NCBI GenBank assembly: GCA_015657535.1
Contig: JADHZB010000963.1
Span: 10,317-74,316 of the forward strand
Direction: 5' to 3'
Origin: Nephromyces sp. MM_2019
Taxonomy: Eukaryota > Apicomplexa > Aconoidasida > Nephromycida
Length of the DNA: 64,000 nucleotides
The stretch's first letter is position 1, and each line of letters opens with the position of its first letter. The notes under the pieces are model-generated. The model was not told the origin of the DNA, made no database searches, and saw only the letters and a program-made list of their open reading frames with translations. Position numbers and translations under genes: made by a program. This document shows, piece after piece, positions 1,934-54,898 of this stretch.

Positions 1934-3534
1934 ACCCACACTAACACACACCGGCACACACATTGCACGCCAATACACACACCAACACACCCGTAATGCA
2001 CGCTAACCCTCCCACCATCCCTCGTACCAAACCAACCCTCCCACAAACGCAGTGCGCACAACACCTTCCCTTACTGGTAATGACTTGAAGTGCTCTTGAT
2101 ACACCTGCTCTACTACCACCCTCGGCCCCACCATACTTTTAGCCATGCAAATTCCACCGCTCCACACAGCCTAGCGCCTTCTCTGCTTCCTCCTCTCTCT
2201 TCCTCCCCCCTCTATGTATCGTGTATCTTTCAAGAATCAAATAGTAAATACATCCATCCACCCTTCTTCCTGGTGAGCACACGTTTATCACACACACTTC
2301 CTTCCTCAGCGCGCTGCTCTTTTTTCCTCCTTTCGACCGTAAAGCACTCTTCTCCTCCCTTTGTCATATACATCGCACTTAAACCCCCTATAGTGTGTAT
2401 TTTCAAAATAACACACATACACACACGCACACACACACACATACATATTGCTGCTGATAAAACACCGTCAAATCAAGGAAGAATAGAGGAATATTCTATA
2501 TCCCTTTTTTTGTGACTTTCGGACTGCCAGTGGAAACTTTTTTCCAGTGTAAGTCGTATTTCGATGAGGATGGGTGTGTGCGAATGCTCTACGCTGAGTA
2601 AATGTGTGCGTGTTTGGGGGTGTGTGTGTGTTTGTGGGGGGGGGTTTGTGTGTGTGGAGGGGCAGATGTGGGGGAAATGTGTGTTGGTTAATTTTGGGGC
2701 TTTTACCGTTTTTTCTGTTTTGGAAGTGATTTACGTGCGAGAGATGTGTGTTTTGGGGGAAGGGGATCTGAAGTCGCGTTTGAGGTGGTGTATTTGAGTG
2801 TGTGACGGTGGGTGTTTGTGTGTGGAGGGCGGGTTTGTTTGTGTGTTGGGGGGAGGCTTTGGGGGCAGTATGAGGATGTATCTGTGTGCTTGTTACGCAC
2901 TTTGCATATGCCTATGTTTTTTTTGTTGGACTTTGTGTGTTCTTCGTGTGTATTAGGTTATGTGAGTGTGTTTGGGAGACTATGCGTGTGCTTATGTGGC
3001 TATGTGTATCTCCCTGACTGTGTTTAAGGTCCCTACTTTTGGTATTTTTGATGCTTTTTCATTGCTTATTGTGATGTAGGAGGTTGTGTGTGTGATGGGC
3101 TGAATTTACTGAATGTGTGTAAAAAAAAATTTGCTGACATTTTATGCTCTTTTTATACTGAAGAGAGTGAATTCTGCTTGCATTTAGTAAAATCGTAAGA
3201 TTTTGTGTGTAGATGGAAGATTGCTGATATTCGTTATAGTTAGATCACACGACGAAGTGAAAGAGCACTTTTTTCTTACGCATAGTTACGGTATTTTTGG
3301 GATAGCTGAGTACCAGTTTCAGTGTGTGCTTGTGTCTGTGTGTGTTTTTCTGGATACCTAGTCTTTTCGATTGATTAGTTGGTGTTTCTATCGATTTTTC
3401 CGATATTTTTAAGGGGAAGTGTAGTATCTTTCATGAGCCTAGTGTGTTGGGGATTTATTTTGTTTTTTGTGAAGGAGGTAATGTAACTCAATGAAGCTCT
3501 TCAGGGAGACTTTGGATGAATTTGTGGTGTTTTT

Positions 3535-3835
3535 TATATTTTATTCTTATAACTCTGTTCTTGTTGCTCTTCTTCTAAATCATCCTCTTCTTCATCTTTT
3601 TCTCCTTCCTCTTCATATTTCTCGCTCTACTACTCCCTCTTCTCCCTACCCCCTCCCCCCCTCTCCCTCCCAGGCCTCCCCCCCCTCTCTTTCTAACCTC
3701 CTCCAAACTGGCGATCTCCAATCCCGCTTTTGGAACCACTCCCCTTCCTCCCCCTCACTATCAGCTTCCTGTCTTCCCATCCCCCCCTCAAACCCCCCTC
3801 TCTTTCCCACCTCCCTCCTCATCACCCCTAGATAA
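3535..3835 (+). promoter_or_regulatory. CT-rich tract just upstream of the KH start codon
   Basis: About 300 bases of almost pure pyrimidine on the + strand, moving from TTCTTC-type to CCCCTC-type sequence, end about 30 bases before the ATG at 3864. It is probably core promoter or 5' UTR, or the branch/pyrimidine tract of a 5' UTR intron whose acceptor could be the TAG at 3856-3858. The exact role is not visible in the sequence. Confidence 0.35.
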
Positions 3836-3863
3836 CACATCAGAGCAACCCCTTGTAGGCAAA

Positions 3864-6503
3864 ATGTCCGGAGAACGTGGAGTTGCACACAGATTATCTC
3901 AAGGGCCTTGCTATCTTAAGCTCTTAGTTAACAACTCTGTTGCTGGTTCTATTATCGGTAGGAATGGCTCTAACCTTGAAAGTATACAGAAGCAGACTCA
4001 GTGTGCGATAAAGGTGTTTTCTCAGAATATTCACTTCCCTGGTACTCAAGAGCGAGTAGTTGTGCTTGGAGGAGAGCAAGATCAACTCATTGATGCTTTG
4101 AATATCATTCTCAGTAAAGTTGAAGAGTTTCAGAGTAGTCAGGTAAGAGGGGTGGTGGGGGGTGAGGATGGTGGTGGGCTGGTGGGTGAGGGGTGAGGGG
4201 TTGTAGGGGGTAATATTTGTTTATGTATGATAGATTTAGAGGTTCAAGGGTGTGCCAGTGTGTGAAGACAATCCTTCAGGAGGGTTGAGTGATAAAACTG
4301 AAGGGGAGGGTTATAGTTACCCCTTTTCCTGATACTTTAAAGCATGAAAGCATGCATCTCCTTGTGTGTTGGATATCTTTGACAAGGTTTCGATTGATGC
4401 TTAGCTTCTTCTCTCCCTCGATGTGTGTGTTATAAGGGGATATATACTTGTGTGCTATCCGTGTGTTTTTTCTGTGCATGTTCTCTGTGTATGCATTCTG
4501 TGTGTATTCTCTGTTTTTTCTTTATGCTTTCTGTGCCTTTTTACTCTGTGTGCTGTCTCTGTATTCTCTCTCTACATTCTCTCTTCGCTCCTGTCTCCGC
4601 CCACCCTTCCCTCTCCACCCACTACTGTCTCAACCTCATAATTATCATTGTGTGTGTGTAGGCATCGAGCTACCAGAATGGTGGCCAGCCTGCCGTTGAG
4701 CCGCTGATGTGCGCGAAACTAGTTTTGCCCAGGCCAGTGGCTGCTGCATTGATTGGTAAGGGAGGGCAGCAGATCAGGCATTTGCAGGTTAGAAGCTCCA
4801 TTTTTTGCTAGAATATTGGATAGTATACTTCTAAGCTTGAGATTGTGTTGGAGAGAGGCTTTGAGGATAGCGTTGTTGTGTGTGCCAGCTTCTGTTGGTA
4901 GCTTGATGGTTTGTGTGCATGCCGTTGTGTGAGTGCTCAAGTGAAGGCGTTAGCTGAGCATATTATCTTTGCTGTGGAGCTTAAAGTTTTGGTGGAAAGA
5001 GGCATCAGAGCTACTTTAGGTTGTAAGTTATTCGGCTTCTGAATGTCTCTGTGCATATGCTAGTGTGTGCCCATGTTTTGGTATTTTTGCAGCAATGTTT
5101 GTGTGTTTATTTAACACATTTATGGGCAGCTTACTTGGATGTGTATTGGTAGAACTTGAATGTGTGTTTGCATCGCCTTTAGATGTGTTTTTTGCCGTCT
5201 ACTTGAATGTATGGATGCGTGTTGGTAGAGCTGATTTGAGTGTTGTGTAGTGTATGTGTGTTTTTTTGCAGCCTACTTCAGCCTGTGTGCAGAATATTTG
5301 TATATACATGAATGTGTGCATATCTCTAGTTTTTTCAGTGGCTTCTTGATGGATAAGTATATGATGTGCTTTCCAAAGATCTAAGTCGTTTCAATGCATC
5401 ATTCGTGCTTTTGATGTAACACAAAGCTACTCTCTGAGCTTCCCTCGTTATTAGCTCACATTCCACTCATAACCCCTTTTGATCTTACTCTGTATCCCAC
5501 CCCCCACGATTCCCATCCTCTCAGCCCCCGCCACCTCCACCGCTACTTCAATCCTCTCAACCCATCGCCACCCACCACTATATCAATCCTGTCAACTCCC
5601 CCACCACTACCCCCATCCTTCCCTGTTCACTCCCCCAGCACCCCCATCCTCTCAACCCCCCCAACACCCCGACCACTGCTTAAATCCTGGCAGCCCATCC
5701 CCATCACCCACCGCTACCCCCATCCTCTCATCCCTTCCACCCCCACCCCTTCCTTCCAGGCTGAGTCTCGCGCTAGCATCCAAGTCTCCAACCGTGACGA
5801 TGTTTATGCAGAGAGAATAGTAACTATAACTGGTTCTCCTGAATCAGTAAGAACGGCTTCTGAAGGCATAGCCGTTTCCATACAAAACGACGTTATACTG
5901 AAGGAATTCATCCTCTTCAATTACAACACTAAAGCAGCTGGCCAAGTCTCTCCCTCCTACAATAGCGCCCCCCTCGCTCATCCATTGGCTTCTGGGCAGT
6001 ATATGCCTCAGTTTAACAGTGGAGTCCCCAGCGCACACACATCGTATATGATGCCTGCAATGAGTGGGAACCTTCCTGCAGGTACTGGAGCTCCTGGGGG
6101 AGCTCCTGGATCTACTCAGATGATGATGCAAGGGCAAGGTCCGGCTGGTAGGTTCAATCCCGACATCTTCACACACCCTTGTGAGATCTTCATCCAAATC
6201 CCCGATGAGAATGTTGGGTGGATTATAGGAAAGGGGGGTATCTTCTTGAGTGAGATCATGTCTTCTTCTGGTGCGAGAGTGAAGATCAGCCAGAAAGGGG
6301 AGCTGATTCCTGGAACTAATGATAGGCGATGCAGCATTAGTGGTGCTGTGAGTGCCGCACACAACGCTCATGTTATGCTGCTGCAGAGGCTTGAGCAGGC
6401 AAGGCTGAACTCTCAGAAGACGAATTATCATGGGAATGTTGAAGAGGGGGATGAGAACTTTCGTATGGGGGGAGGATATGAGTTTAATAGTGGGTTTGAA
6501 TGA
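3864..6503 (+). CDS. Three-KH-domain RNA-binding protein (PCBP/NOVA-like)
   Basis: Predicted 382-residue protein from three exons: 3864-4142, 4662-4787 and 5760-6503, all joined in phase 0 with GT-AG introns. KH proteins bind single-stranded pyrimidine-rich RNA and act in splicing, mRNA stability or translation. KH1 has GRNG at residues 32-35 (IIGRNGSNLESIQ). KH2 has GKGG at 125-128 and is split by intron 2 right after its GxxG helix. KH3 has GKGG near 292-295 (WIIGKGG). A Met/Pro/Gly/Gln-rich linker of roughly 80 residues separates KH2 from KH3, and the tail is short and acidic to Gly-rich. The KH1-KH2-linker-KH3 layout and length match the PCBP/NOVA family. The ATG at 3864 is the first in frame. 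Intron 1 is GT-rich (519 nt) and intron 2 (972 nt) ends in a C-rich repeat. Function beyond RNA binding is inferred. Confidence 0.9.
5500..5759 (+). repeat. C-rich degenerate repeat forming the pyrimidine tract of KH intron 2
   Basis: About 260 bases of C-rich DNA carry repeated CCATCCTCTCA(A)CCC-like words with CACC(A/G)CTA spacers. It runs directly into the acceptor TTCCTTCCAG at 5750-5759. It is intronic and makes an exceptionally long polypyrimidine tract for exon 3 of a gene whose product should itself bind pyrimidine-rich RNA. Confidence 0.7.
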
Positions 6504-25999: not shown

Positions 26000-28900
26000 A
26001 TGTCTTCTGCTCGAATTGAAGAATTCCGGAACTTTCGGGACCCGGAAAGAAGTCGAGCTTCTCAGCCTTTGATAGGTGCGAATCCTGTAGATAGTACATT
26101 TGGTCAAACTATCAACTCATTGTTCCAATATACTGATTTGAGACCAATGTGGCCAAATAAACCAACTTTCTACGGTCTGGTCTCCCATCCGCTTAAGATA
26201 CCTTCATGCCTCTTCTTCCTCACAATATTTGAGCTTGTAGTCTTTATGATTACGGCAGCGATTTGGCCCCTCAAAAACTCTCCTGTCATATTACAGATCA
26301 GCAAGTGAGTGAGATGCAGTTTTTTTCCAATTTTTGCGAGTTGTGTGTTTATTTTTCGTTATTTTCTTACTCAGGGTGTGTGTGAAGTGGACAGAATGGG
26401 GAATTTTAACTTTTTTTTGCACACTCTAGTTTTTTGGATAGAGAGATCGTGTGAGGCTGCTTGCTTGGAAGCACTGCATGCAGGGCCAATTGCTGTACTC
26501 AAGTGCGACTTTTAGATATTTTTGTTTTTTTATGCACGATTTGCTTAGATTTTGCTTTACCAAATAGTACTTTGAAGATTTTGTGTATGTTACTTTTGGT
26601 AGAGTTTATGATTTCATTTACCATTGAAGCTTGGATTCTTCGATTAAATGTGTGTATATCTCTTGGTATGCACGCATCTACCCAGATCTTCATAAAAACT
26701 GCCTTGTGTGTGCTACAATACCCCCTTTCAACACATTTTCCCCCCTCCCATTTCTTTGTGATTTTTCTGATGTTTTTCTAGTATTCTATTCACTTTTTCA
26801 ACTTAAAAAATTGTGTGTTAGCGAGGGAATTATCACTGCTGGAGCATATGATGGTGGGTTGGTTGCTTCTGGACAAGTATGGCGTTCGCTCACTGCAAAC
26901 TTCCTACACTTCACGACTTCGCACTTGTTGGTGAGTCCTATGATGATGTTTTTGTGCTCCAAATTCTACTATTTTTTTGTTTTCTTATATCAGCCAAGTT
27001 TATGCTTCTAACTTAAGTGGTCTTCTATATATTCTTGTTGTAGTCACTAGTCTTTTCAGGGATAAGACACGCAGTTTACCACTTTTTTTTTTTTTCCTAC
27101 TCGCAGAAATATTTGTGTTTTACTTTTCGTGTGCATTTTAATCCTTATATGTGTGGCCTCTATGCACATACTATTAGTCAATCAAACTTATAGATTGCCT
27201 GTAAACGTGCTACATTTTTACTACTTTTCCAACCTTAGATATTAGCTCCCTCTTCTTTCTCCTATAACCTGTAAAATTCTATTCAATTTTTGCTGGTTTT
27301 CTCGTGTTTAGGGTAACTGCCTGTTCCAGGTAATCTTAGGAGTCCCATGCGAGTCATAGTAAGTTCTTTTTCGTGTTTTGGCTTTGCAGCATCTCTTTAA
27401 AAGATGTGTGTGCGTTGTGAAAAAGCTCCCGCTTTTACATCATTTCTTTCAAGTAGTTCTTTGTGCTTTTTTCCGTTTTTTGTGCTAAACGAAAGCTTAT
27501 TCGCTGAGTTTCTCAGATGAGGAGGGGTTCTTCCTTTAGCGAGTTTTTTCATTGAAGTTGCGCACGTACTCACTTTGCCAATTCACTGTATTTTTCACTT
27601 TTTTTCGAAAATATGCTTTTTTTGTTTGGATTTTGCAACTTGCAGCTCTATACTTGTGTAGGACATTTACTTTTATAATATATAGCATTTTAACCAAAGA
27701 GAATCGCAGAATTGGAAGGAGAGAAGGAATCTCTGCTTCATAAGTGGAACTGATTACTTTTTTCAAACTGCCCTGAGCTATGATCCTGCAATTGAAGTCG
27801 TAAATTGTGTGCTAAATCCATGCATTGCGGAGAGATTGAGATTTCATCTTGATTCATTAGAAGTAGCTATCCTAAAAAATGTGAATTTACTCCAAAAAAG
27901 TTTTACAAGGGGATATTTTTTTAATTTTAGTCTTTTTTTCTAGGAAATCACTCAGTAGAGATCAGTTTATCGCTGTTTTCTACTGTTTCATGCCTATTGA
28001 AATCCGGAAGTTTATCGCTTTTTTATGCGTAGTAAAGATGAGAAATAAACAATTCCAAACCCCTCACAACCAGCTGCTACTAGATTTCCCTGCCAAAATA
28101 ATCATTTGAAGAAGTTTTTGACTGCAGCCATTGTTATCTTTCGCTGCAGTCTTGGGCCGTACCGGTTCCTCTTCTTGTACGTAATGAGTGGAGTCACTGG
28201 AAACATATTCTCAGGCGCCATAGAGGCATATTCAGTGGTGAGTTGTATAGCATAAAGTTACAGCAATTCTTCCGGGTGCCACACAAGTGTTGTTCGCTAC
28301 GGTTGTTTATTTTTGGGTGTGTTGTGCATGTTTTTGTTGGATTTAATGTGTATTTCTGTGTGTTTCTGTGTGTTTTTATGGGGTTATATTCGTGTTTATT
28401 CCTTTAGAAATTTGTGTTTGTTTCTCTTTGCATTCGAATTTGTCTGTATTTCACTCTATAGATGGGGTTTTTTGTGTGTGTTCCCCCTGTATATATGTGT
28501 GCTGGTGTCTCTTTCTACGTCAATATAAGCAGATGAAGGAAATTGATGGCACTTAGCAATCGCTGGGAATGGTACCATCGATGAGTTTACTGTGCATAAA
28601 CTAGCTCTCAAGTTTTAGAGTGAAGAAACGAGCTCGAATTAAGCCACTCTCTCATGTGACGTTACTTTATTCCCCATAATATATATACTTATGACATACA
28701 CTCTCCGACCCGCAGTATTTTATGATGTATACCCGCACATGCACAACATCACAGTAAAGTCAGTGTTTCCTATGGAGATGTATGTACAGGAAGTCTAATT
28801 TTGTGTGTGTTATCTGCGGTCCTCTGTCAATCTTTTAAAGTAGCCCAAACACCGGTGTGTCGGCTTTAAGCTTATGCTTTGTTACGGTAGGCGCAAGTGT

Positions 28901-31900
28901 GTGTTTTGTTTCGTCACCCAGCTTGTATCTGTGTGTGGGATTCCTTCCTTCTTTGCACTTCACACAAAGTATTTTCTGAAGTGGCTGAATGCACCCCAAA
29001 GTCTCTGTTAGTCGATTTATCTCCCTCTCATACCCTTTCTTTTCTGATTTTCTGTAGAGAGCTGGAGCGTCAGCTGCCTGTTGTGGGATCTTTGGCATCA
29101 TAGTAAGTTATAAAGCGTAGTGTAAACGATTTCTACTTCTCCAATCCTCTCTTTGATTCTGCTGCTTGAAGCTACTTTTTTTCGCCTTCTAAACTTTGTA
29201 TTCTGGTTTATGATTGAGGGATTCCTCCTCAGCCAATCGAAATTTTCTACTTTCCTAATCTTTGAGAGGGTATATAGAGAAAATTGACTGCTAATAGCTA
29301 TCTATGAAATTTCCAAAAAAAAAAAGTTTATTAATCATTAGTATATACATTTAGTTAATACTCCGCTGGCTTATTCATTTTTTCCTTCATCTGCTCCTCT
29401 TTATTCCGCTATTTTTGATGCTGTTGCTTCCTTTCTACTCTGTTTTGTTACTTCTTCTTCCCAAGGTGTTTGTTTCTTATTCATCCTCCCGGATTTACCA
29501 CTTCTTCCTCTACTCGAGTTTGCTTCTTCAGCTAGAAACTCACATTCCAATGTATTATGCGTTTGGTTAAGTTTTATATATACTGTGAACGGCCCTTAAC
29601 TTATCAATTTGCGTGTGTATATGCAGGTAGCCCAACTTTTCATGACCTGGAATAGGATACTAACAAAAGCTCGTATCCTTTGTGAAGTTGGGTAAGAAAA
29701 GTTATGCCTTTCGTAGCTTTTTGATTGGTGTGTGTGTGTGCGTTTTTTTCCCCCTCTTTTTGTATAAATTTAGCTCCTGATATTTATTTTTTTCTCTTAC
29801 AGAGCTTCCTCATGTTTAGTATCGCTTTCCTTCATATGTTTGCTTTATTTTCGGTATATTTCCATGCCAAGGCCTCCCATTTTTGATGTGTTTTCTAAGA
29901 AGCTGGCAAGCTCAGTTTAATTGCCGTTGATCCATGTATAATTGAACTCCGTGGAGGCAATTGCTTATAAGCTGACAACACCGGGTTTCCCCGCCTGCTT
30001 TTTCGTGGTGTTTTTGTGTAGTTTCATCGACGAGACTAGGTTTGTTACGTCTTCATTATATATATGTGTGTGTGAGTCCGTTTTCATCCCTAGATAGGTT
30101 CCACCTGCGTCTTCAAGCTTTTTTCCACGTGTGTGCGTATATTTTGTGGTGCTTAAATGAAACTTTTTGCTCCTTTTACCTTTCTCCGTGTGTGCGTTTT
30201 CTCTTGAATGCTTTCTATTGAGTAATGATAATAAGCATGTATGTGTGCACAACTCCATTTAATCTAATTTTCATCGTGCATTTAGCTTCCTGGCTGTTTG
30301 GATACTTCTGTTTTCCTTACTTCCTAGTCTCGTCGGTAAGTCTAAAGTTCAGAGAAGAGCCTGCCAAATATCTTCAAAGTATCTTTCCCATCCGCACACA
30401 CACATCATCACATGTTTAATTACTCCTAAAGAAGCCTTTTTTAGAGCATTACGAAATGCTTCTGTTTAAACTATTCACCAACATGTGTGCAACGAATGCG
30501 GATTTCTCTTTAAAAATGTAGTATATCGCAAAGTTTAGAATCTTTTACAAAACAAAGCTGTTATCGGGCATTAGCCAAATTGCCTGGAAAGTACTATTCT
30601 CTTTTTTAATATGTGTTTATAGCTCGTAGATACCAAGTTTTTCATAAATACTATTCATATTTGAAAAAATCATTCATCTGTTCAAAGAATGGAAGCTCGC
30701 GAAAAAAGATTTTTTCTATGGGAAAGAAAATTCTGACAGGAAGCTGCTTTCAGGTTGATTAAGTATGGGGTGCAAATACCCCGATTTATCTAGAAAATCA
30801 CACATTTTAAGGTAATATGGATAATATTCTCCAGAGCAGAATTGAGCTAGCAATATCTCTAGAAGATATTGTAAAATATTCTACAAAAATTCTTTGGTAG
30901 CCGATTAGTTACCAAACAGCTTTTGGAAGATGATGCTATTCACTTTAGAGCGAAGACTACGTATTATGCAAAGTTTAATCTCTCAAGGCTCCCGCATTTA
31001 AAGTCCAAATACACCTTATTTTGTATCTCTTTTTCTACATCTGCGTAGCTAGAATTCCCGTCTTGCTTTCATCTAAAGTAGACGACAAGAAACAGGTTAT
31101 TGAGCAAATAAGAGCAAGAGGTGAATAGTGAGGTTTGTGTAGAAGTCTCTGATTTGACGCTCACTCAAGGAGTTGTATACTAGTGCGTTTTACGTGAAGA
31201 GACACGAGCTTCAGAAATATGAGCATTGAAATATCAGGTCTACCAAATATAACTATTTTTGATGTCTGTGGTGGTACTAACGCAAATTCCCCAGAAAATG
31301 AGTTATTGTAGATGACATGACGTAGTAGTAGCTCCTGCTTCGCCGTTTGAAAGAGGATATTAGTTGATATCTAATGATTATCTTCAAACAGATTTTTACT
31401 TCATATTTGCACTGCCCTGAAAAGAGCCTCCAGTCTTTCTGTCTTCACTTACCCCTTTGTAGCCACGAAGACGGAGATGTGTGTGCACACACACAGTGAA
31501 ACATGCAGCATACCCACGTATTTCGATATCATTAAAACAACCATGTCGATTCACTCTCTTGCCGTTGGCCTTCTTGCTTCCTCCTATTGAACATTGCACT
31601 TCAGACTGGCGTGGCCATTTAGGCGGGTTTATCGCAGGATTTTTACTTGCTTTCCCAGTTTCCTACAAGAAACCCCTTACACCAAGGTAGAAAGCATTTT
31701 TTATGCTGCGCAGTTTTTGTGTGTGCGAGAGACGCTATAGCTGCCAGGTATTGGCATCCTGCAGTGCGTGCTTGATCCTTTTTTGATTCTATTTTATATG
31801 AATTTCTGCAACAATTTCAGTTTTTGTCGATTTCTATCTTCATTTTGACTGCATTTAATGCTTATGCCTGAATTGCTTGTATTTTGTGCAGTTTGAAATA

Positions 31901-32335: not shown

Positions 32336-32393
32336 TGTGTGTGTGGTGTGTTTGCGTCGGAGTGAGCTGGTAGGTGTGTGTGTGTGTGTGTGT

Positions 32394-32442
<49 letters not shown>

Positions 32443-32492
32443 NNNNNNNNNNNNNNNNNNNNNNNNNNNNNNNNNNNNNNNNNNNNNNNNNN

Positions 32493-32585
<93 letters not shown>
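32336..32585. repeat. Compound GT then CT microsatellite
   Basis: A (GT)n run at about 32374-32397 passes directly into (TC)n that continues to about 32585, interrupted only by unknown bases. It begins 27 bases after the rhomboid stop codon, so it is probably transcribed in the 3' UTR. Its true length is unknown because of the gap. Confidence 0.95.
32443..32492. other. Assembly gap of 50 N inside the CT microsatellite
   Basis: Fifty undetermined bases are flanked on both sides by pure TC repeat. The size is probably a placeholder, so coordinates to the right may not reflect true distance. Translations across it are meaningless. Confidence 0.97.
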
Positions 32586-32587
<2 letters not shown>

Positions 32588-35500
32588 GTGTATCTCTGCT
32601 CTTGTGGTTGCTTTCATTTCAAGATTAGAAACAATCAGCTTGTTTCTCAGTCAATAGTTTAACTAGTAGCTTTTCACCACTCACTTGCAAAATCTACAAT
32701 AATGCTGGCGCTCTTCACTTTATCTCTGCATATTCGTTCATCTCCTTATATCTCAATCTTCATTTTTTCTTCAAATTGAGCTTTTCCCTGTCACGATACT
32801 ATCGATCTTATCAGCCATAAAAGGGTTCTTCGATTAGTCTTGCAATTATTACATTTAAAGCCAGTTTTTGGCTCGCACATTTTTGAAAATTCTTCTCAGA
32901 TGCCCATCTTCTACAAAAAATTTCACTAAAGTGGGGATTTTCTTCTCTGCTTTCTCAGAAATGAGGCTCTGTTTCACTTTTTCCTGAATTTGTATCGTTT
33001 CTTCAGCACCCTTCTCCCCATTTTGCATACCGCATTCATTTACCATTACCACAAACCGCATTTCCGCGCTAGCTATATAAATTTAATAGTTTACATTTCG
33101 ATAGTTGCAAATTGTTTTAGCGCCTCTCGTTGGTCAAGTATCGCTCATCTTTTTATTTTTTTGTTAGCAGAAATATATATTTTTCAAGGTAGCTTGGCAA
33201 TGTTTTTCTAGTGTTTTGCTGAACACTATCAGTGACCCTCAAAAAACTTACGTGCTGGTAAAAATTGGTTGTATATATCACAGTAGTAAAGAGTTTGGAT
33301 TACTAGTATGATAAACATCAGACTTGAGGCATTCTTTATTAACTTTTGCGTATAGTTCTCAATATGTTCAAGATTTCACCGCTTTCTGTGTTTCGTTTAG
33401 AGTAGTTGACTATGAAAGCCGTATCTGCAGAAGCTGAGTTAGGCACCCAGCAGACTAATGTAGTCATAAAAGGAGTAATGTTTCTTGCTCCTCATGGACT
33501 ACTATTTGCTTGCGAGCACTTTTAGTATAAATTGAAGTGAGGAAGATGTATTATGGTGGGAAATAGTACTGACCTGTTCAGCCGTGCGTGCTTGTTTGAA
33601 GTGTTTTACCCATAAGCATTGGCTATTATTCCTATAGGGAATATCTGATGCTTGGTCTATACGTTGTGGTTCCAGATAACGGCCGTGGAGAGGTTGCAGA
33701 TATTACGCAAGCAGTTTAGTATCTCGATAGCATGTGCAAAGCTGGTTCCCTAATGCTATTTATGCATGACCTTGGGATGTTGTAAAAGTGTAAATAATAG
33801 CAAAAAAGTTGACTGAGCTAAATTTGAGGGGGGGAAATGGTATTTCTTAAGCTGCGTTGAGGTTTCTATTTTTTCCCTGGAAGCTGTTGCTAGAGATTTA
33901 TTCTATACGAGTTTTCAAAGTTCAGGAAAGGTCATCTCCTCACACGCCAAGCTCGTGGTATAGATGTTTTTTGGTGTATTAACGACGTTGGTATGTGCCC
34001 CGGTATGGCAGGCTAGGAATGTATTATTGTTGCAAATCAAGATGGGCACGGACAGCTAGTGCCGTTAAATGATCTGGCGTGAAGTGGTATTCTGCTTTAT
34101 TCTTCGCAGTAGAGTATGGTGGCCAATGCTAATAAACTACCTTCCTTGAGTGCTTCCCTGTGTGCTGCTGAGTGGCGTACGCGTCTTCTTTGGCTCTGAA
34201 AGCTCCGGTTTTCGTCACAAAGTAAAGCAATGCGTTTTTGTGGCTGGAAAGTACTTTCTTCTACGAAGGTCTTATTGCATCTATCTGTTCAGATATACTT
34301 TTGCGTAGGATTTTTTAGCACACCGCATTGTTTGTGTGTGTTTTGCAGGTTTCCTCGTAGTAAAATTTGCTCTTAACTTTTTCGCGCGGAAAATGTCGTA
34401 ATTTATAATTTATGCCGCCCGACGTCATGTGTTTTGTAGTCATGGCTTCATGCATGGAGATGTCTTTGACTAGGGTCATCTTCATCGCAAGTGAAGAAGA
34501 CTCTGATCACTTACATAACTCTACTTAATGAGAGGAGTACTGATTGGCTTATTTTGCTGTTCCCTGAAGGGGATATGATTGTGTGGTGGGTTACCATGGG
34601 GTTCCTGAAATCAATTGGATTACTTTACGCGTGTACTCATGTGTTTCACGTGGGACCGACCTGACTAAGCGCTTGAAAGTACTGCCATGAGTGGGAAGAA
34701 TACTCATATTAGTGCTGCTTTTTTTGGGGAAAATTGTTGCGATACAGCCTGAGCCAGCTGGCTACTACTGGGTGAGAAAACGCCTTCAAATCTTGAGGGT
34801 GTTATTTCGAATGTACTCTTACCTGGGACTCTGACATGAGTCATTCCCTGGTGGTCTGGGTTTTTACATTTTGTGGATGGACTGCATGATCAATGACTAA
34901 TAGAGTTTTGGGCTGCAATATGCACATCTTGCATGAAGTGTAGCACCTGTTGTGAAGTCTTGTTTATAAGCAGTTCAATCGCTTAGCGCAAGGATTTTAT
35001 GTGTACCCTTGCGCGGAAAAAAAGCAGAATACATTTTTACTATTACTGGAGTGGGTGATCTTGCAAAAAAAAGCTTAGCAGCTTGTTTATCCCAACATAC
35101 AAGGAATCACGGTAACAAATTAAAAACGATGCGCTGTTACCAGCATATCATTACCGTAGTTCAGCAAAGTTCTCATGATGTTGCAGCAGCATTTGAGACT
35201 CGCTAGCTTCCAAAGCAGAAATGATAATCAGCGCGATGCACGAAAACTTTTAACGTACAATTTATAGTGAATCTTCTGGGTTATTTGAGATGCCTTTGTT
35301 CCACTCCTGAATTACCGTTGTGTAACTTACTCTAGGAACCAGCCCCACATTCATCAGAAGTTTCGAGGTCTTTCACACCTCGTGGCTGCGCGCTAGTACG
35401 CTGAACCAGGATGCTTATTTATTGGGCATGTAAATTTGTCGCCACCTTGAAAACACATAAAGAATAACGCTGCGAAGCTATTGCTCTCTCTGCATCGAAC

Positions 35501-43271: not shown

Positions 43272-46200
43272 ATGGCCCTGAGTTCGTCATTCCCTCCCAG
43301 AGATTATGTTGGATACGGTGAGAATCCGCCTAATCCCAATTGGCCCAATGGAGCGAAAGTTGCTGTATCCTTTGTGTTTAATTATGAAGAGGGTAAGTGC
43401 TCCGTTTCCTAAAAGTTCTTTTTAGTTGCTTTCTGTAGCGCTTGTACCTGGATGTAAATTTACGCAGATTTTAACAAATGTTTGGGTTAGGTAATGCAAG
43501 GTAGTTAAAGGGATGGGCATGTTGTTCATTGCCTTCACAAATTGGAAATGTGTTTGTGGTCCTTTACTATTTTGTCAGTTGCTATTTTTGTAACTGCCAC
43601 GAGTCGTTATAAGCCCCTCAACTAGCAACAAAAAACATGCATTTCGTACAAGTTTAAGTGGTAAATTTATGAGAACTTAAGGTCTCAAAACTAAGAAATA
43701 TAGTTACTCAGGTTCTTGAGAAGTCGTGATCCAGAGGTAGTAAGGAGGTGGTGGCATACTTGCATATATGAGATGGGTTGTTTGGAATATATGCCTGATT
43801 TGACTTGGTTCCGTGGAGGAAGAAGAGGGGTACAATGAAAGTACAAGGTAGCTTCGTTTTTCCTGAGGGCATTGCGATTCATGACAGCGAACTCTGGTAG
43901 AAATAATGGCGGAACTTCTGAGGACTATTAGGTGTGGCAAGTTGTATGTGTAGGATTGATTTTTCCAAAGTATTTATTAGGAGTTGCACCCCACTACAGC
44001 CCCATGTGTTTGGCATCCATAAATTGATAATACGTATGATTGAGAGGACCGCAAGTTCTAGTAGAAATTCAACGTTGCTTCATTCAATTTTTCTTCGTAT
44101 TATTTGGCATAAGGTTAAGTGCTGCAATACTCTTGGGGTCTGCTATAAAGGTAGACGATTGCTGGTAATTTGCTTTACGGTATGGGCCGTTAGTATTCGT
44201 TGCAATGGCGAAGGTGGTGCAGATTGGTTACAATTTGGCTAAGCATAATCAGTTTTTTTTTGTTGAAACACGGTTATCCCCTGGCACCGGAGGCATTCTC
44301 TTCGTTATCTAATGCGAATGTGAAAATCTTATGTGTATCCTATGAAGTTGGTAAACTAGAGTTCTTTGATGCTTTGGAAAAGTATAAGAAAACTCCGTAG
44401 CTATGCTTCCTTTGTGCTTTGGAGAAGTATAAGAGAATGCCGTACTTCAGAACTGAAAATATTGCTAATTAGGTCGTTGTGGAAGTGGTTTTTTCTGAAC
44501 AAATTCGTTAACCTTTCAAATCTATGCTCCGATGATCTACTTCTTGAAACATATAAGAGGATACTACATCTTACTTTGCTGTTGGATACCAAAATTCCAG
44601 CTATTCGCCACGACCACTGATTTTTTTAGCGTACTTTGCTTAATTTTATACTTTATAAACCTAAGCTTCCTCGTAAAGAACTTATCTTTGCTGCATTCCT
44701 CTGCTGATTATTTTGTTTGCGTTTTTAATTATTCAAGTTCCATATCTTTACCATACTGCGGTATTTTTCCTGCAAAATGCTGAAAACCTCATTAGGATTT
44801 ATTTGCATATATTTTGGGAGCCCTGCTCAGTGTTATCTTCTTTTGTATGTACACTTATGGTCTGCTAGTAGTTTTGTACATCTTTTACATCTGGCTTACA
44901 TGTATCTTGCCATTTAAACTTGGCTCACAGTATGAATACTCTTGTTCTTTTTATATATGTATCGAGTTATGTATATAAATTACCCAATATTTTGTGGTTG
45001 AAGTGTAGCTTTAGCTTGGCATATCTTCACCGCATTCTCCCAGCTTCTACCTACTTCGTTATGATATCTTTGGGTACTAGTATCACTACGTAGGTGCCGA
45101 GATGTCCATTACCGAAGGAGATAAAGGTGCAGAATTTCTTCTCAATGAGATCCCTGGAACTGCTCCCCTGTTAAATAAAAGAAACCCTAATGTTGAATCG
45201 CTTTATGAATATGGATCAAGGGCTGGATGCTGGAGGGTGATTCGTGCCTTTGCGGATAAGAAATTAGCTCTTACTGTATATGCCTGCGGACAGGCATTGG
45301 AAAGAAATCCCGAGGCTGCTCATGCTATGGTAGGGTATATATGTTTCCCATTATTATTGTGCCCCACTCTGCTTCTGGCGTCTGTATCGCGTATTCTATA
45401 TGGCATTGAAAATAGGTATTTTTTGTGTGAACCAATGATAAATTTTGAGCGTATATACATCAAGTATTTGATAATATCTTGGTAGATGAATGGCTATGCA
45501 AACAACCACTCCCACATACACCACAGAGAGTCCGCCTAACACAAGGAGTGTACGTACACTACCGTTTTCCAAGCCTCTTGGCTGTAACCAAGGAGTTTGC
45601 GTAGTTTACAAAGAAGCAGAATTAATATATTGCCCTTTTTTCTGTTTTCGAGCTATAAATATTATAATGGTTGCTGAAATTAACTCTTTCAATTGGGTTC
45701 ATGACAAGAGTTGACATGTCACACACACAAGCAAACGAGCCCAACATACATTGTGTTAGAGTAAGCATATGAGCACATCTCAACTTTTGGGTGAATGGAG
45801 CTTAACCCTCCTACGCCGTTTTTATGGCTTAAAATTTCTATAATACACACGTGATGTAGCGAATCTTTGAGGTGCTTTGAGGAGCTAGTGCACGCTAATG
45901 ATTTACCTTGTATACATTATTAACGTAGCTACCCTTGATATCATTTTTTTTCCAATTTTTCCTAATATCTTGCATAACCTTTTCGATGCTTGCTGCTACC
46001 GGTATAGTTCTTATGAAATTTAGTAAACATGCGCTTTTCATTTATACTTCTTTTTAGCTTTTTCTTTGAATAAAATGCTCATTTAGTTTTAAAGTTCTTT
46101 AAGAGTTTCCCATTATGTTCATCCCACTTTTTGATTCCTTTTTGGCCTAAATGCTCACTTTGCCACCGGAACTTGTGTGTTTCTTTTTCTATTTATCCTT

Positions 46201-49200
46201 CAATCGAGCTGATTCCACACCTCCAGTGTCTTCCCATGCTCAATCCAGTAAATTTCACATGTTTAAGCCCCTACAACGGCATATTTTGTAAATTCCTCGT
46301 ATTCCTAAGAATTTTTAATGCTTTTCATGGTGGCATCAAGATTTTCTTCGTTCTGCAATATACTTCTAATCTTCGCCTTCGTCTTTGATTTTCCTACTGT
46401 TAAACTTGAATCAATCTTCGACATATGAAGTAAAATACTTGCTTTTCTTACTGCTAACCATAATATATTATGCAGCATAAAGCTGGCTTTGAGATGGCTT
46501 CGCATGGGTATCGTTGGCTTGACTATGCTGAAGTACCTATCGAAGTAGAAAGGACGCATATCAGGAAGACCATAGAAGTACATCAAAATTTATTTGGAGC
46601 CCCACCCAGAGGTACTTTTAACGAATTGATACTATACTGCTTACTTATTGTGAAGGAAGGAATCGCTTTCAGTTGTATTTCCATTTTAGTTCCTTGTTTT
46701 TACCTTTTTTGGGTGTAGAACACCAAGCATGCAATGTATGTGTGAAATCTAGTTTTATAACTTGTATTTTCACGCTGTTTATGTTTTTTATATATTTTCA
46801 CCACTTTTAGTTGAGGTGCTGATGCGTTTTACAGCGGCGGTGATTGCCTCGTCTTCAATTTGGTGTTATGCGGTTTTTTGCTAAACGATTCGAATAGTGC
46901 ATTGTGAGTTTTCTTTGGATGTATACTTTAGGATTCTCTGAGTTGTGTAGAAGGTAAAACTTTTGCTCTGAAGGGTGAAGATTTGCTCTTTTTTTATCCG
47001 AGTTTTTGTTGGGGGCAGGTTAGACGTGTGAGATCATGTTTGATAATCATTAATTAGTATGTGTTCTTTCGTCTGATTCTCTCTTATTATATTGTGCTGC
47101 TTTGCTGCCATGCTATCTCCTCGGCGATCTAATCATGAGGAATTTCGCACTAGACTTGTCTCTCACGGGAGCTCTCAGTTACGGCATGATTATTAATCGT
47201 TAGCAACCGTTATATTTCACGCTTGCCTACGATGAGATGATAGTTCATGTTGAATTGGTCTATTACCCGCGATGTTAGGATGTCCTGCAAGTGTTTATGA
47301 TGTGAGGGATCCCCCTTACAAAAAATCTGTTCTCTACTGAATATCTTACTCATTCGCTAGGCATTTTGCGTACAGCCATATCATTAATGAAATGCTTCAA
47401 CTGGAACTTTACTATCCACCTGCTATACCAGCTTACCATTATAGGCAACTTCCATCGCATGTGTTCTCCTGAAGCTCTAGTTTTCCCCTCTGAATTTCTT
47501 TGCAGGTTTCTATCAGGGAAAACCTAGCGCCAAAACAAGAGAGCTTGTTCTCGAGTTTCCTAACTTTGAATATGACAATGATGTCTATAATGATGACCTT
47601 CCATACTGGAACTACTTTTACAGTAGGCCCCTGCTTATGATACCGTACTCTTTGGACTGCAATGACATGAAGTTTGTTGCCCCAAATGTAAGAAATTGGG
47701 AGAAACTGTGGTGCAAGGGGTTTTCCATGGAAATAGTGGATGTAATATCTCGTTGCTCGTAGCCTTGTTATTTTGACCTTTGTATGTATACCTGATTAGC
47801 GCTAAAAGTATCTTTTGAGATATCCTCTTTTTTTTTGTAAGTCAGCTTAACCAAGTGATTTCGAGACTCGCACTTTATTTTTACCAACGCCAAGGAATTA
47901 GCAGCTCTTACCCTTTACTCTCTTTAATCTTCTATCACCCCCGGTTCTTTGATTACCTGTGACGCACACACCCTATACCTACACACACCTTATATGCAAT
48001 CACCTAGACATCACCCACATAGTAACAATCACACAAACCAACACCCCCCTTTTAAGTTTAAATACTGCTATACCACGAGCAAATGGGAACGTGGGTTTAT
48101 CGATAGAGTTTAATCTAAAGAATAAACCTAATATTGGTGCCTATCTGTTATCCCTTCGTTAAGTTTTGACTCAGGAGGCTAATTTTTGGTAGAGTGTGTT
48201 GATGCTAAGACTTGCTGCAGGGTATTGTAGCAGCCCTGGTAGTTTGCATGCATTTTTGGACATGCGCTTGCAAGTTTCTATTGCTCTAATAAATGACGGC
48301 TCTCTAACCCATTATTAGTTGGTGATAAAATAGCTTTTAGCTTGCATCGAAAGTAGCTGCAGAGCAAATTATGCAGTTGATTAATATCGGATGTGTGTGA
48401 GCATACCATGACTTGCTGCCGATGCTGCTCAACTTATTACTTGCCCTTGTACCATCCGCAAACCTCCAATGATGTGTGCAGGGATCTCCTTATTCTTCGG
48501 AAAATTTCTTCAATTACATGAAAGATACTTACCAATGCTTATTAGAAGAATCCACAAATTCTCCAAAGATGATGTCTATTGGGCTTCATGCTCGAATAGT
48601 TGGTAAGAATTGGTGCTTTATTAGCTCTGTACTGGAATTTATAGAGGCATATATCACATACACAGCCATCAATACTACATACAAGGAATGTTGTGTGTGT
48701 GGTGCATGCAGCTGCGCCCACTATTCGGTACTACATTGTCATGTACCGTTTGAGTGCGTTCGTGTTAAGGTGCGATCACTTTTTTTTACAACTATTTGCT
48801 GCTTTGTTAAGCGCTTCACGTATACATTGGAACGTGGTGGTAGGAAAGGTGAATCACTCTTACTGTGCTATGAAATAGGAAATAGTTTATAAAAATTAGA
48901 ATAATTCGGAAGACAGGGGGCGTCAGCTTTCAATATCTTCAATAAACTCTAAACGCTTATGCTCTGCTAAGCACACGCATTTAAGCCTTTTGGCTTCTTG
49001 TAGAGCTAATCTGCCACCAGTTTTAAGCCTGTCTTATTGATTGGGCGCTGGTATGTCCGATTAATATGAATTTGGAAGGATTTTATATCTTTGAAATAAT
49101 GCATTTGAGTGCTTCATGCCTCATTTGGTGTAGTTTACATGCTTTGCTTTTAATTTTTCATAGCTCCAAATCCCGTGTGGCAAACTCATTGAAGAGGACT

Positions 49201-50100
49201 TTTTTTCTACATGATTTATTCTGGAAAAATACTTTTTTTGCAATTTGTCTAGGTTTTTTCACAGCATAGAAGAGTGATAATTTCATTGGGTTTATTACGT
49301 ATTTTGATTATAGTTGTAATGAGACCGCTATATACGCAGTTTTCATCTGTATTCATAAGATAATTCCTATTCCAGCACAAGAGTAAATTTTGCACTCCTG
49401 TTGAAATTTTTAGTTCGCCTATTTGATACAGGCTGAAAGTGTATCCCCAATGTGTCTTGTTATCTCATCGCGATACTACTTTATTATCATCTTTATGGCG
49501 TGATGCTGAACTGCTGCTTAGTTATAGTCTCTCGGTCCTCTATATGAAAGCTGCAGCATATTTCTTAGCGCCTGTGTTGGTAGATACCTGTAACTTTATT
49601 AGTGGCTGATTCCGTTTAGTATTTCATCTGTAGTTATGCTACATCTTTTGATCCCTGCGCTACTTTAGCATCTTGAAAGAGCTTTACTTATTCACTGTTC
49701 AAAATTTAACTCTCCTAATGAATGGGGTGTCTTGAAGGCGTTTAAACTGCACATTTCACGCCTTTACCAGTGTAGCAAAAGGTGCTGAGCCCTCTCTTTC
49801 ATATATGTCCAAGATATTGTTTTAGCCCGGCACCAACTTTTTTTTTGAAAGCCTGCATCCCTTTACAATGCTGAGTTTTTTATTTTCTCTGGGCCATGCA
49901 TTATTTGTTTACACTTTCATGTTATCAATAATTCTTGATTTCTTTTTTTGACAAAATTTTACTTAGGCCGCCCTGGCAGGATTATGGGTCTTAAAAGATT
50001 TTTAGATTATATTGCAGATCAGCAAGAAAAAGGAAACGCTTGGGTGTGCACTCGCGGCAGCATTGCAGATCATTGGATTAAAAATTTCCCTGCAAAGTAA
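43272..50100 (+). CDS. puuE-like: Allantoinase, PuuE-type (polysaccharide-deacetylase fold)
   Basis: Six exons: 43272-43392, 45094-45329, 46476-46611, 47506-47687, 48482-48602 and 49967-50100. All phases agree and the product is 309 residues, the usual PuuE length. PuuE enzymes hydrolyse allantoin to allantoate (EC 3.5.2.5), the step after urate oxidation in purine breakdown. They are unrelated to the amidohydrolase-type allantoinase. The family landmarks appear in order: PPRDYVGYGENPPNPNWPNG, AVSFVFNYEEGAE, ESLYEYGSRAGCWR, ALERNPEAAHAM, EMASHGYRWLDYAEV, YNDDLPYW, IPYSLDCNDMKF, PKMMSIGLHARIVGRPGRI and a C-terminal WVCTRGSIADHW. The ATG is the first in frame after upstream stops and gives the standard N-terminus. 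No signal peptide or SKL-type peroxisomal end is seen, so a cytosolic enzyme is inferred. Introns are 866-1701 nt. In the usual AGHE(I/M)ASHG motif the first His is Phe124. Confidence 0.93.
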
Positions 50101-53100: not shown

Positions 53101-53563
53101 ATTAATAGATTAGAAAAACGAGAAGAGCGAACATGCTTTATCTCCTTTTTGTTAGTGGGAGCTAGAAAGTCCACGGGCAAAATCACTGGATGCGAAAGCA
53201 CTACACTTTTTAAGCGCTATGAAATTTAGTTTAAGGTAAATACTTGCAAACGCTATATGGCGGTAGGCATCATCATTTTAGCGATTACGATAAGCTCATG
53301 CGGGTTTACGGCTTAAGTGAAAAGCATGGAGGCCACCAAGAGGAAAGCTAATACCTTATCGACCCAACAACGCTGAATTTCGATTATTAATCCGCAAGGC
53401 AGAAACTCAAGACGCAATATTCGTTTTATTTGGCAGCCCTCATATAGTTTTTTTTATGGGATTTCGCAGCAGAAGAAAAAGTAATGTATTGTGCGCTATC
53501 CCAAGTTTTTAACTCATTTCTTTTCCTTCCTAGCAAAAATTTCAAAAAGTCAGCATTCGTTCA
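50101..53563. other. Region between allantoinase and AP2 genes, no supported gene
   Basis: No recognisable exon. 50785-51009 and 52219-52419 on the + strand are open for 65-75 codons without family resemblance. A strong pyrimidine-rich acceptor (TTTCTTTTCCTTCCTAG, ending at 53533) leads into an open frame continuous with the AP2 exon, so upstream exons of the AP2 gene may lie in this interval. A short ATG frame starts near 53325 but soon stops. Confidence 0.45.
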
Positions 53564-54898
53564 ATGAACGCATCCAATAGCGACTCTGCTACACGGAAAA
53601 CCCTTTTTGGGAAGTGTGAAAGCTCCTCAGGGTTTCCAGGAGTCAGCTGGAACAAGAGAATGAAGGCTTGGCTCGCCTTTTTCTATAGTGGAAATCGGCG
53701 AAGAAACAAGACCTTTAACCCACGTAACTATTCTAACAGCAAAGAGGTGAGTTTCTTGCCCTCGAAGGAGAAAAAAAAAATTTACATAAAACTAAATGGT
53801 AGCAGGTATTTTTTTAAGTACTTTCAGGATATTTTAAAGACCGCGTACGCACCTTATCAAAATTAGAAGCTCCATGGGGTTATACTGAACTTTAAAATTA
53901 AACTATTTCTTCACAGGCTGCAAGACTTGCTGCTATAGAATTTATGAAGTCTTTACCTTCGCAGATCAATAATCAATCTGCCAAAAGCCAACGAGAATTT
54001 CCAAGTGGTAAAATGATGTGCTATTTTTTACAAGAGAGAAATTTTATTTGGCAGTATACCTATTTTATTTCAAGCTCTTGTGCAGTCAAGTTAGACTTAA
54101 TACACGTACTGCCTGGTACGCACCGAATTGCTAAAAACGGCTTCCATACCGATAGTATGACCAGCGCAGAACATATGCCTCTACAAAAGTTGTATGGAGC
54201 TCCCAATCAGCAAGTATACGATATTTTACGTCTTTACCAACATTTAATGTGCAGCCATTTACTAAAAGTTCACCACAGTAATCCTCGAAATTGCAGAAAG
54301 GGTGTGATGTGATATCATTACAGATTAATATTTGTTTTGCTGATTGCATCTTACTAAGTACTGATATAATATGATATAGCCTATGTTATTGTCTTACTCA
54401 GGGAATATGACAAAGATACAACCCACTTCTCCCGCCAAAACTGCCATCGCAAGACTTCCATATAATGCTGCAGCCTCAGCAATAAAGCAAACAGATAGTA
54501 AGACTAACAAGAGAGTTCAACCCGAACTTTCAGAAGCCTCAGACAGATCAGGAGATTGCGTAAATAGCGACAAAATTGCGGATACTGTCTTCGTTTCTCC
54601 TGCATTGTGTCATCGCCTTATGTTTTCCACTTCTAATAGCTTTTCTTCTAATCCTGACGTTGAATCAACCATTTACGAGTATTTGATCAGCAATGACGAC
54701 CAAAATTTGCCAGGATTTGAGCTTCCTGCATTATTCCACGACCAACAAAACTTTAAAAACCGAAAAGAAGCTTATAGCGCTGTTGTGAATGTACGGTACG
54801 AACAGAATGACATCTTGACGCATACCTTTGATCACGATAATCATTTACAACAAAAATACGAAAAAGCAGAAACCAATAGCCAGTATGCTATTGCGTAA
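53564..54898 (+). CDS. AP2-domain DNA-binding protein (ApiAP2 type)
   Basis: Exons 53564-53746, 53917-54007 and 54402-54898 (joins in phase 0 and phase 1) give 256 residues. AP2 domains are the main DNA-binding modules of apicomplexan transcription factors. The domain spans about residues 21-76: [18 protein letters not shown], three predicted strands, then after the first intron the helix [13 protein letters not shown], as in ApiAP2 proteins. The rest is Ser/Asn/Gln-rich with no further domain seen. The ATG at 53564 is the first in frame, but the frame is open back to an acceptor ending at 53533, so 5' exons are possible. If the second intron is retained, translation would end at 54312. The +1 frame stays open and protein-like beyond the stop to 54986, so the 3' end may also differ. 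Confidence 0.82.

Follow-up and report, generated by a model that had tools for sequence, protein, structure and literature searches.

We analysed a 64,000-nucleotide stretch of DNA (the window; positions 10317-74316 of contig C513 in assembly G000, 48.28 Mb in 1127 contigs) that carries a candidate gene for a PuuE-type allantoinase at window positions 43272-50100 on the + strand. Six exons and five introns yield an in-phase open reading frame of 309 residues plus a stop codon, and GT-AG borders are found in all five introns. A preliminary description of the locus had proposed six in-phase exons and a 309-residue protein, and both its length and its end coordinate proved exact. The parts of the gene are listed here, with its introns compared to those of a second PuuE gene, located on contig C345.

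43272..43392, + strand: exon 1, beginning with ATG; residues 1-40 and the first base of codon 41; donor GTAAGT
43393..45093, + strand: intron 1, 1701 bp, phase 1; identical position and phase in the C345 gene
45094..45329, + strand: exon 2, acceptor GTAG, donor GTAGGG; its 134-aa open frame scores 85.9 bits to TIGR03212
45330..46475, + strand: intron 2, 1146 bp, phase 0; identical position and phase in the C345 gene
46476..46611, + strand: exon 3, holding SHGYRW; acceptor GCAG, donor GTACTT
46612..47505, + strand: intron 3, 894 bp, phase 1; identical position and phase in the C345 gene
47506..47687, + strand: exon 4, acceptor GCAG, donor GTAAGA; end chosen on profile score and backed by the C345 gene
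47688..48481, + strand: intron 4, 794 bp, phase 0; identical position and phase in the C345 gene
48482..48602, + strand: exon 5, holding SIGLH; acceptor GCAG, donor GTAAGA
48603..49966, + strand: intron 5, 1364 bp, phase 1; identical position and phase in the C345 gene
49967..50100, + strand: exon 6, acceptor TTAG; stop codon TAA at 50098-50100

The data confirms a real spliced gene of the PuuE type at 43272-50100, with junctions that are predicted. Donor and acceptor combinations were searched mechanically, which first yielded a model of 327 residues whose exon 4 ends at a donor further on. We rejected this model: its 54 additional bases lowered the score on the PuuE profile (384.2 compared to 399.1 bits), the extra stretch is absent from the PuuE chain 3CL6, and its exon-4 end differs from that of the C345 gene.

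Family assignment and substrate

The window protein matches the NCBIfam family TIGR03212 (allantoinase PuuE) well above chance level and over nearly its entire length (E 9.5e-120, 399.1 bits; residues 9-307, profile positions 2-296 of 297), and the runner-up NCBIfam family reaches only 28.0 bits. The AllB-type family TIGR03178 is not among its NCBIfam matches, and PF01979 is not among its Pfam matches. The Pfam and Protein Data Bank (PDB) searches and the alignment with 3CL6 were carried out with the 327-residue version, for which PF01522 is the sole Pfam match (E 0.001). Five PDB sequences were matched. Three of them, 1z7a, 3cl6 (PuuE allantoinase) and 3s6o, lie at E 1.2e-86 to 4.4e-82 (3CL6 at 4.7e-85), and the remaining two are other deacetylases at E 4e-10 and 8e-10. 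The window protein is thus closer to PuuE chains than to chitin or peptidoglycan deacetylases, and the possibility raised beforehand that chitin deacetylases would be its best matches is not what we found, as PuuE chains lead the PDB search by far. The trees described below were built of PuuE homologs only and are therefore no test of placement between PuuE and the deacetylases.

The alignment with 3CL6 shows the stretches NYEEG and SHGYRW with identical letters at matching positions. As in 3CL6, they occupy the place of the deacetylases' metal-binding motifs, where those enzymes have their metal triad. The SIGLH stretch is also retained. Passages of two papers describe PuuE as an enzyme with a NodB fold that neither binds nor depends on metal (PMC3084791, PMC10967932).

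The predicted enzyme resembles the PuuE of Pseudomonas fluorescens (3CL6) in its near full-length alignment, its NYEEG and SHGYRW stretches and its similar length. Unlike that bacterial, intronless gene, the Nephromyces gene is interrupted by five introns, and its product is predicted from sequence to be active. The Pseudomonas fluorescens allantoinase was reportedly described by Ramazzina et al. in 2008. An AllB-type allantoinase (a cyclic amidohydrolase, TIGR03178) carries out the identical reaction with a fold that differs from that of PuuE. PuuE allantoinases are expected to act as homotetramers.

Two findings count against this assignment. The window protein misses the NCBIfam cut-off of 424.6 bits, a value curated for annotating prokaryote genomes rather than a biological trait of the family; the C345 protein (405.2 bits) also falls short, while homologs from Rhytidocystis (472.7 bits) and Vitrella (509.8 bits) pass. 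In addition, 90 alignment columns are at least 98% conserved among 199 other homologs; 85 of them are unchanged in the window protein and 82 in the C345 protein, and four of the five columns altered in the window protein lie at residues 227-249. The claim that every PuuE landmark is present was therefore slightly too strong, though it holds for 85 of the 90 columns. The missed cut-off, the altered columns and the long branch of the window protein (see below) would also suit an enzyme that kept the PuuE fold and drifted to another substrate, a related cyclic amide or imide. We regard such a drift as highly improbable: NYEEG, SHGYRW and SIGLH are all retained, the assembly contains urate oxidase, 5-hydroxyisourate (HIU) hydrolase, 2-oxo-4-hydroxy-4-carboxy-5-ureidoimidazoline (OHCU) decarboxylase and allantoicase, and searches for another allantoinase in it found none, a weak negative. 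We are highly confident that the nuclear genome of Nephromyces encodes a PuuE-type allantoinase at this locus, an enzyme predicted to have the NodB fold and to convert (S)-allantoin to allantoate without metal.

Two genes, two GC classes and the contig's organism

PuuE matches occur on only two contigs of the assembly, C513 and C345, in six pieces each, both by protein search and by TIGR03212 search. The two genes are 55% identical over 304 codons, and all five introns have homologous positions with equal phases (1, 0, 1, 0, 1). Identity at codon positions 1, 2 and 3 is 0.58, 0.71 and 0.42, respectively; the genes agree at 21 of the 55 fourfold sites that can be compared, and no similarity is detectable between their introns. 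Because of this codon-position pattern, the shared intron sites and the dissimilar introns, both genes look to be under selection for the protein, and they descend from one gene that already held these introns.

The organism was identified by its uricase. An uninterrupted frame on contig C548 (L033, G000:C548:4000-13999, 4666-5577) matches A0A3S5HLX1 from Nephromyces sp. MMRI, an apicomplexan of the order Nephromycida, at 100% identity across 303 residues. The second deposited Nephromyces urate oxidase (P0126) matches contig C1018 in eight pieces that are 79.6 to 100% identical, so that one uricase lies in one frame and the other in eight pieces; the urate oxidase contig presented in the main text of PMC6320678 has seven introns. 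The preliminary description had named Nephromyces as an exception among apicomplexans, and the uricase identity places the assembly with Nephromyces sp. MMRI. Since the organism is one of the two named exceptions, finding the pathway here was to be expected and is no surprise.

The pathway genes fall into two classes of GC content. Stretches with 28-30% GC carry the C345 PuuE, the C1018 uricase, the C328 allantoicase and the C456 OHCU decarboxylase; stretches with 40-46% GC carry the C548 and C1090 uricases, the C1087 allantoicase, the C841 OHCU decarboxylase and the C900 HIU hydrolase. The window itself has about 40% GC. PuuE, urate oxidase, OHCU decarboxylase and allantoicase are each present in both classes, and HIU hydrolase was seen in the GC-richer class only. 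When 20 contig starts were sampled, seven had 25-31% GC, ten had 36-45% (three of these partly masked) and three were wholly masked; no value among the 17 readable starts lay between the two classes. The classes may represent two co-infecting Nephromyces species.

Three other genes or fragments were recognized in the window.

3864..6503, + strand: gene for a KH-domain RNA-binding protein, at least two coding exons; PF00013 in both pieces; PDB match Nova-1 at E 3.6e-18
26000..29700, + strand: rhomboid protease gene of several exons, with approximate ends and provisional junctions; PF01694 at E 2.3e-22
53534..53863, + strand: AP2 domain, a stop-to-stop fragment with no gene model; PF00847 at 25.9 bits, below the cut-off of 33.3

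Single fragments of the rhomboid gene gave no rhomboid match. The only PDB match of the AP2 fragment is 3igm (PF14_0633, E 7.2e-16), which we take to be a Plasmodium protein. These neighbours fit an apicomplexan contig, with the rhomboid and AP2 matches alone speaking for it, the KH matches being animal proteins by name. At an E threshold of 1e-10, the window showed no similar stretches in the rest of the contigs fetched, so C513 is not linked to any of them by a repeat. Window positions 32366-32600 hold an extended run of CT/GA dinucleotides with a stretch of N within it.

A mixed assembly, as the two GC classes among the sampled contig starts make this one appear, could harbour a contig from the tunicate host, a bacterium or another eukaryote. 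For the window we consider this extremely unlikely. The window shares its GC class with C548, the bearer of the deposited Nephromyces uricase; it has AP2 and rhomboid neighbours; and its PuuE groups with that of Rhytidocystis. With five introns in the gene, a bacterial contig is excluded. The earlier argument that a spliced gene beside AP2 and rhomboid genes is not bacterial contamination is supported by PF01694, 3igm and the introns, and we continue to treat the window as Nephromyces DNA.

Kinship and origin of the gene

A homolog search matched 7994 proteins, and the rankings given here refer to the best 120 of the 7994. The closest among the matches listed is P0002 from transcriptome GHVQ (58% identity over 98%), which the consulted part of PMC7522995 assigns to Rhytidocystis pertsovi; Rhytidocystis is an apicomplexan of the class Marosporida. 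Further down are Vitrella (55%), oomycetes, an ochrophyte and cyanobacteria, and homologs that are bacterial by name are 52-55% identical, level with Vitrella. P0002 and Vitrella also rank first when the search starts from a profile built on both Nephromyces proteins together with P0002. No Nephromyces or Cardiosporidium PuuE entry occurs among the named rows of the matches listed, in either the protein or the profile searches. P0002, an apicomplexan protein, is the top match among those listed and belongs to the same tree group as the window protein; it differs in passing the NCBIfam cut-off (472.7 bits) and in being known from a transcript alone.

We calculated a tree of 67 rows, made up of 65 homologs chosen from 201 and the two Nephromyces proteins. 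The window, C345 and Rhytidocystis proteins form a group with support 100/90, and a separate group of 37 rows, including 11 named bacteria, stands apart from Nephromyces, Rhytidocystis and Vitrella (97/99). When either Nephromyces row was omitted (43 rows), the other still grouped with Rhytidocystis and Vitrella, with support 98/92 for the window and 98/95 for C345.

Some results weaken an account by inheritance. The branch joining the window, C345, Rhytidocystis and Vitrella proteins in the 67-row tree (94/89) is unstarred, and the window branch is long (2.21), as is that of the second Nephromyces row (1.62). A constraint that puts the window row within the bacterial group carries a cost of 18.53 log units (approximately unbiased (AU) test, p 0.177), and one that puts both Nephromyces rows there a cost of 29.75 (p 0.075), so that neither placement is rejected at 0.05. 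These p-values, together with named bacterial homologs that are about as near as Vitrella, are what a gene transferred from a bacterium (cyanobacterium-like or an endosymbiont) into the Nephromyces line, with introns gained later, would lead one to expect. Such a transfer would have to account for five introns common to two lineages that are only 55% identical, for a grouping with Rhytidocystis and Vitrella that survives the omission of either Nephromyces row, and for the separate group that holds the 11 named bacterial rows, and we judge it very unlikely.

The grouping of the Nephromyces proteins with those of Rhytidocystis and Vitrella favours vertical descent over transfer, without proving it, and suggests an origin in an ancestor of apicomplexans and chromerids. 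The preliminary description had left open whether the gene was retained or acquired. Retention is the favoured half of that statement, with Rhytidocystis and Vitrella as the nearest named relatives, but the AU test does not reject a bacterial placement.

A uricase from transcriptome GHVS (P0124), 46% identical to the Nephromyces uricase and ending in SKL, was also observed; the consulted part of PMC7522995 gives GHVS as Rhytidocystis sp. ex Travisia forbesii. Taken together, the putative Rhytidocystis uricase and the R. pertsovi PuuE suggest that a second apicomplexan line also degrades urate.

Urate degradation in Nephromyces

The assembly contains the companion enzymes whose search had been proposed, and all four were found: urate oxidase on three contigs, allantoicase on two, OHCU decarboxylase on two and HIU hydrolase on one. 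The third uricase is in several pieces on a contig with 46% GC (L034, G000:C1090:20001-30000, 3452-5938), and these pieces are 39-56% identical to both deposited Nephromyces uricases.

AllB-type allantoinase gave no match across the assembly, either with TIGR03178 or with E. coli AllB, which is a weak negative. The PuuE profile TIGR03212, taken from the same library as TIGR03178 and used in the same manner, returned 12 pieces from two genes, showing that a split gene of such size is detectable. PF01979 has two matches, one in each GC class (C1034, L064; C927, L065), and for three pieces of them the top-scoring family is 5'-deoxyadenosine deaminase or TRZ/ATZ hydrolase; the C927 match was judged on 70 residues taken from a single reverse frame, as the listed 1023-aa frame was not recovered in 3186 bases. 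Each GC class thus has a gene for a TRZ/ATZ-type hydrolase or deaminase, and one of the two may be the highly expressed amidohydrolase proposed for ureidoglycolate in the main text of PMC6320678. Two assembly searches are unfavourable to the pathway as reconstructed here. PF01522 found nothing despite the presence of two PuuE genes, and negatives across the assembly, including that for AllB, are therefore weak. The xanthine dehydrogenase domain PF02738 had no match, although the main text of PMC6320678 reports the gene in Nephromyces.

In the pathway we propose, urate oxidase, HIU hydrolase and OHCU decarboxylase would convert host urate to (S)-allantoin. PuuE would then open the (S)-allantoin ring to give allantoate, without a bound metal, and allantoicase would produce urea and ureidoglycolate, so that the symbiont would take host urate as far as ureidoglycolate. 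The catalytic activity and the flux of the Nephromyces PuuE are predictions within this scheme. The window protein ends in FPAK and the C345 protein in PPKK. SKL is a peroxisome-type signal, and because an SKL-like ending is absent from both proteins, the enzyme is probably located in the cytosol.

Purine degradation in Nephromyces and Cardiosporidium has been published, with urate oxidase, uraH, URAD and ALLC on genomic contigs (PMC6320678, main text), and the consulted part of the Cardiosporidium genome paper supports the urate pathway (PMC7737231). The main text of PMC6320678 describes Nephromycida as the only apicomplexans with urate degradation among those sequenced by 2019. It gives 'allantoinase' without a type in its introduction and Table 3, shows ALLC or allantoicase in Table 1 and Figure 1, and has no occurrence of 'PuuE'. 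For three Nephromyces samples it also ranks transcripts called 'Allantoinase' between percentiles 98.23 and 99.09; these may derive from the window gene, or Table 3 may be using the word for allantoicase. A literature search without most subscription journals found no paper with 'PuuE' and 'apicomplexa' together; the word Rhytidocystis was absent among the matches listed, a weak negative. Compared to the published pathway, the organism group is the same, and the enzyme type, unnamed in that main text, is now assigned as PuuE. What is newly added is that the allantoinase of Nephromyces, a symbiont related to the malaria parasite, is by its predicted protein of the PuuE type, bacterial in style and intron-containing.

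We consider it fairly probable that the last common ancestor of Apicomplexa kept the entire pathway from urate to ureidoglycolate with a PuuE that came down from a chromerid-like ancestor, that this pathway survives in at least two lines (Nephromycida and Marosporida) and was lost several times elsewhere, and that PuuE, not AllB, is the allantoinase of the group. For the allantoin step of a urate-degrading tunicate symbiont, the type of enzyme is now assigned and both sequence and gene structure are available, which together make a concrete target for assay. The PuuE and uricase of Rhytidocystis suggest that urate degradation extends beyond Nephromycida, which would make the order of its losses in the phylum testable.

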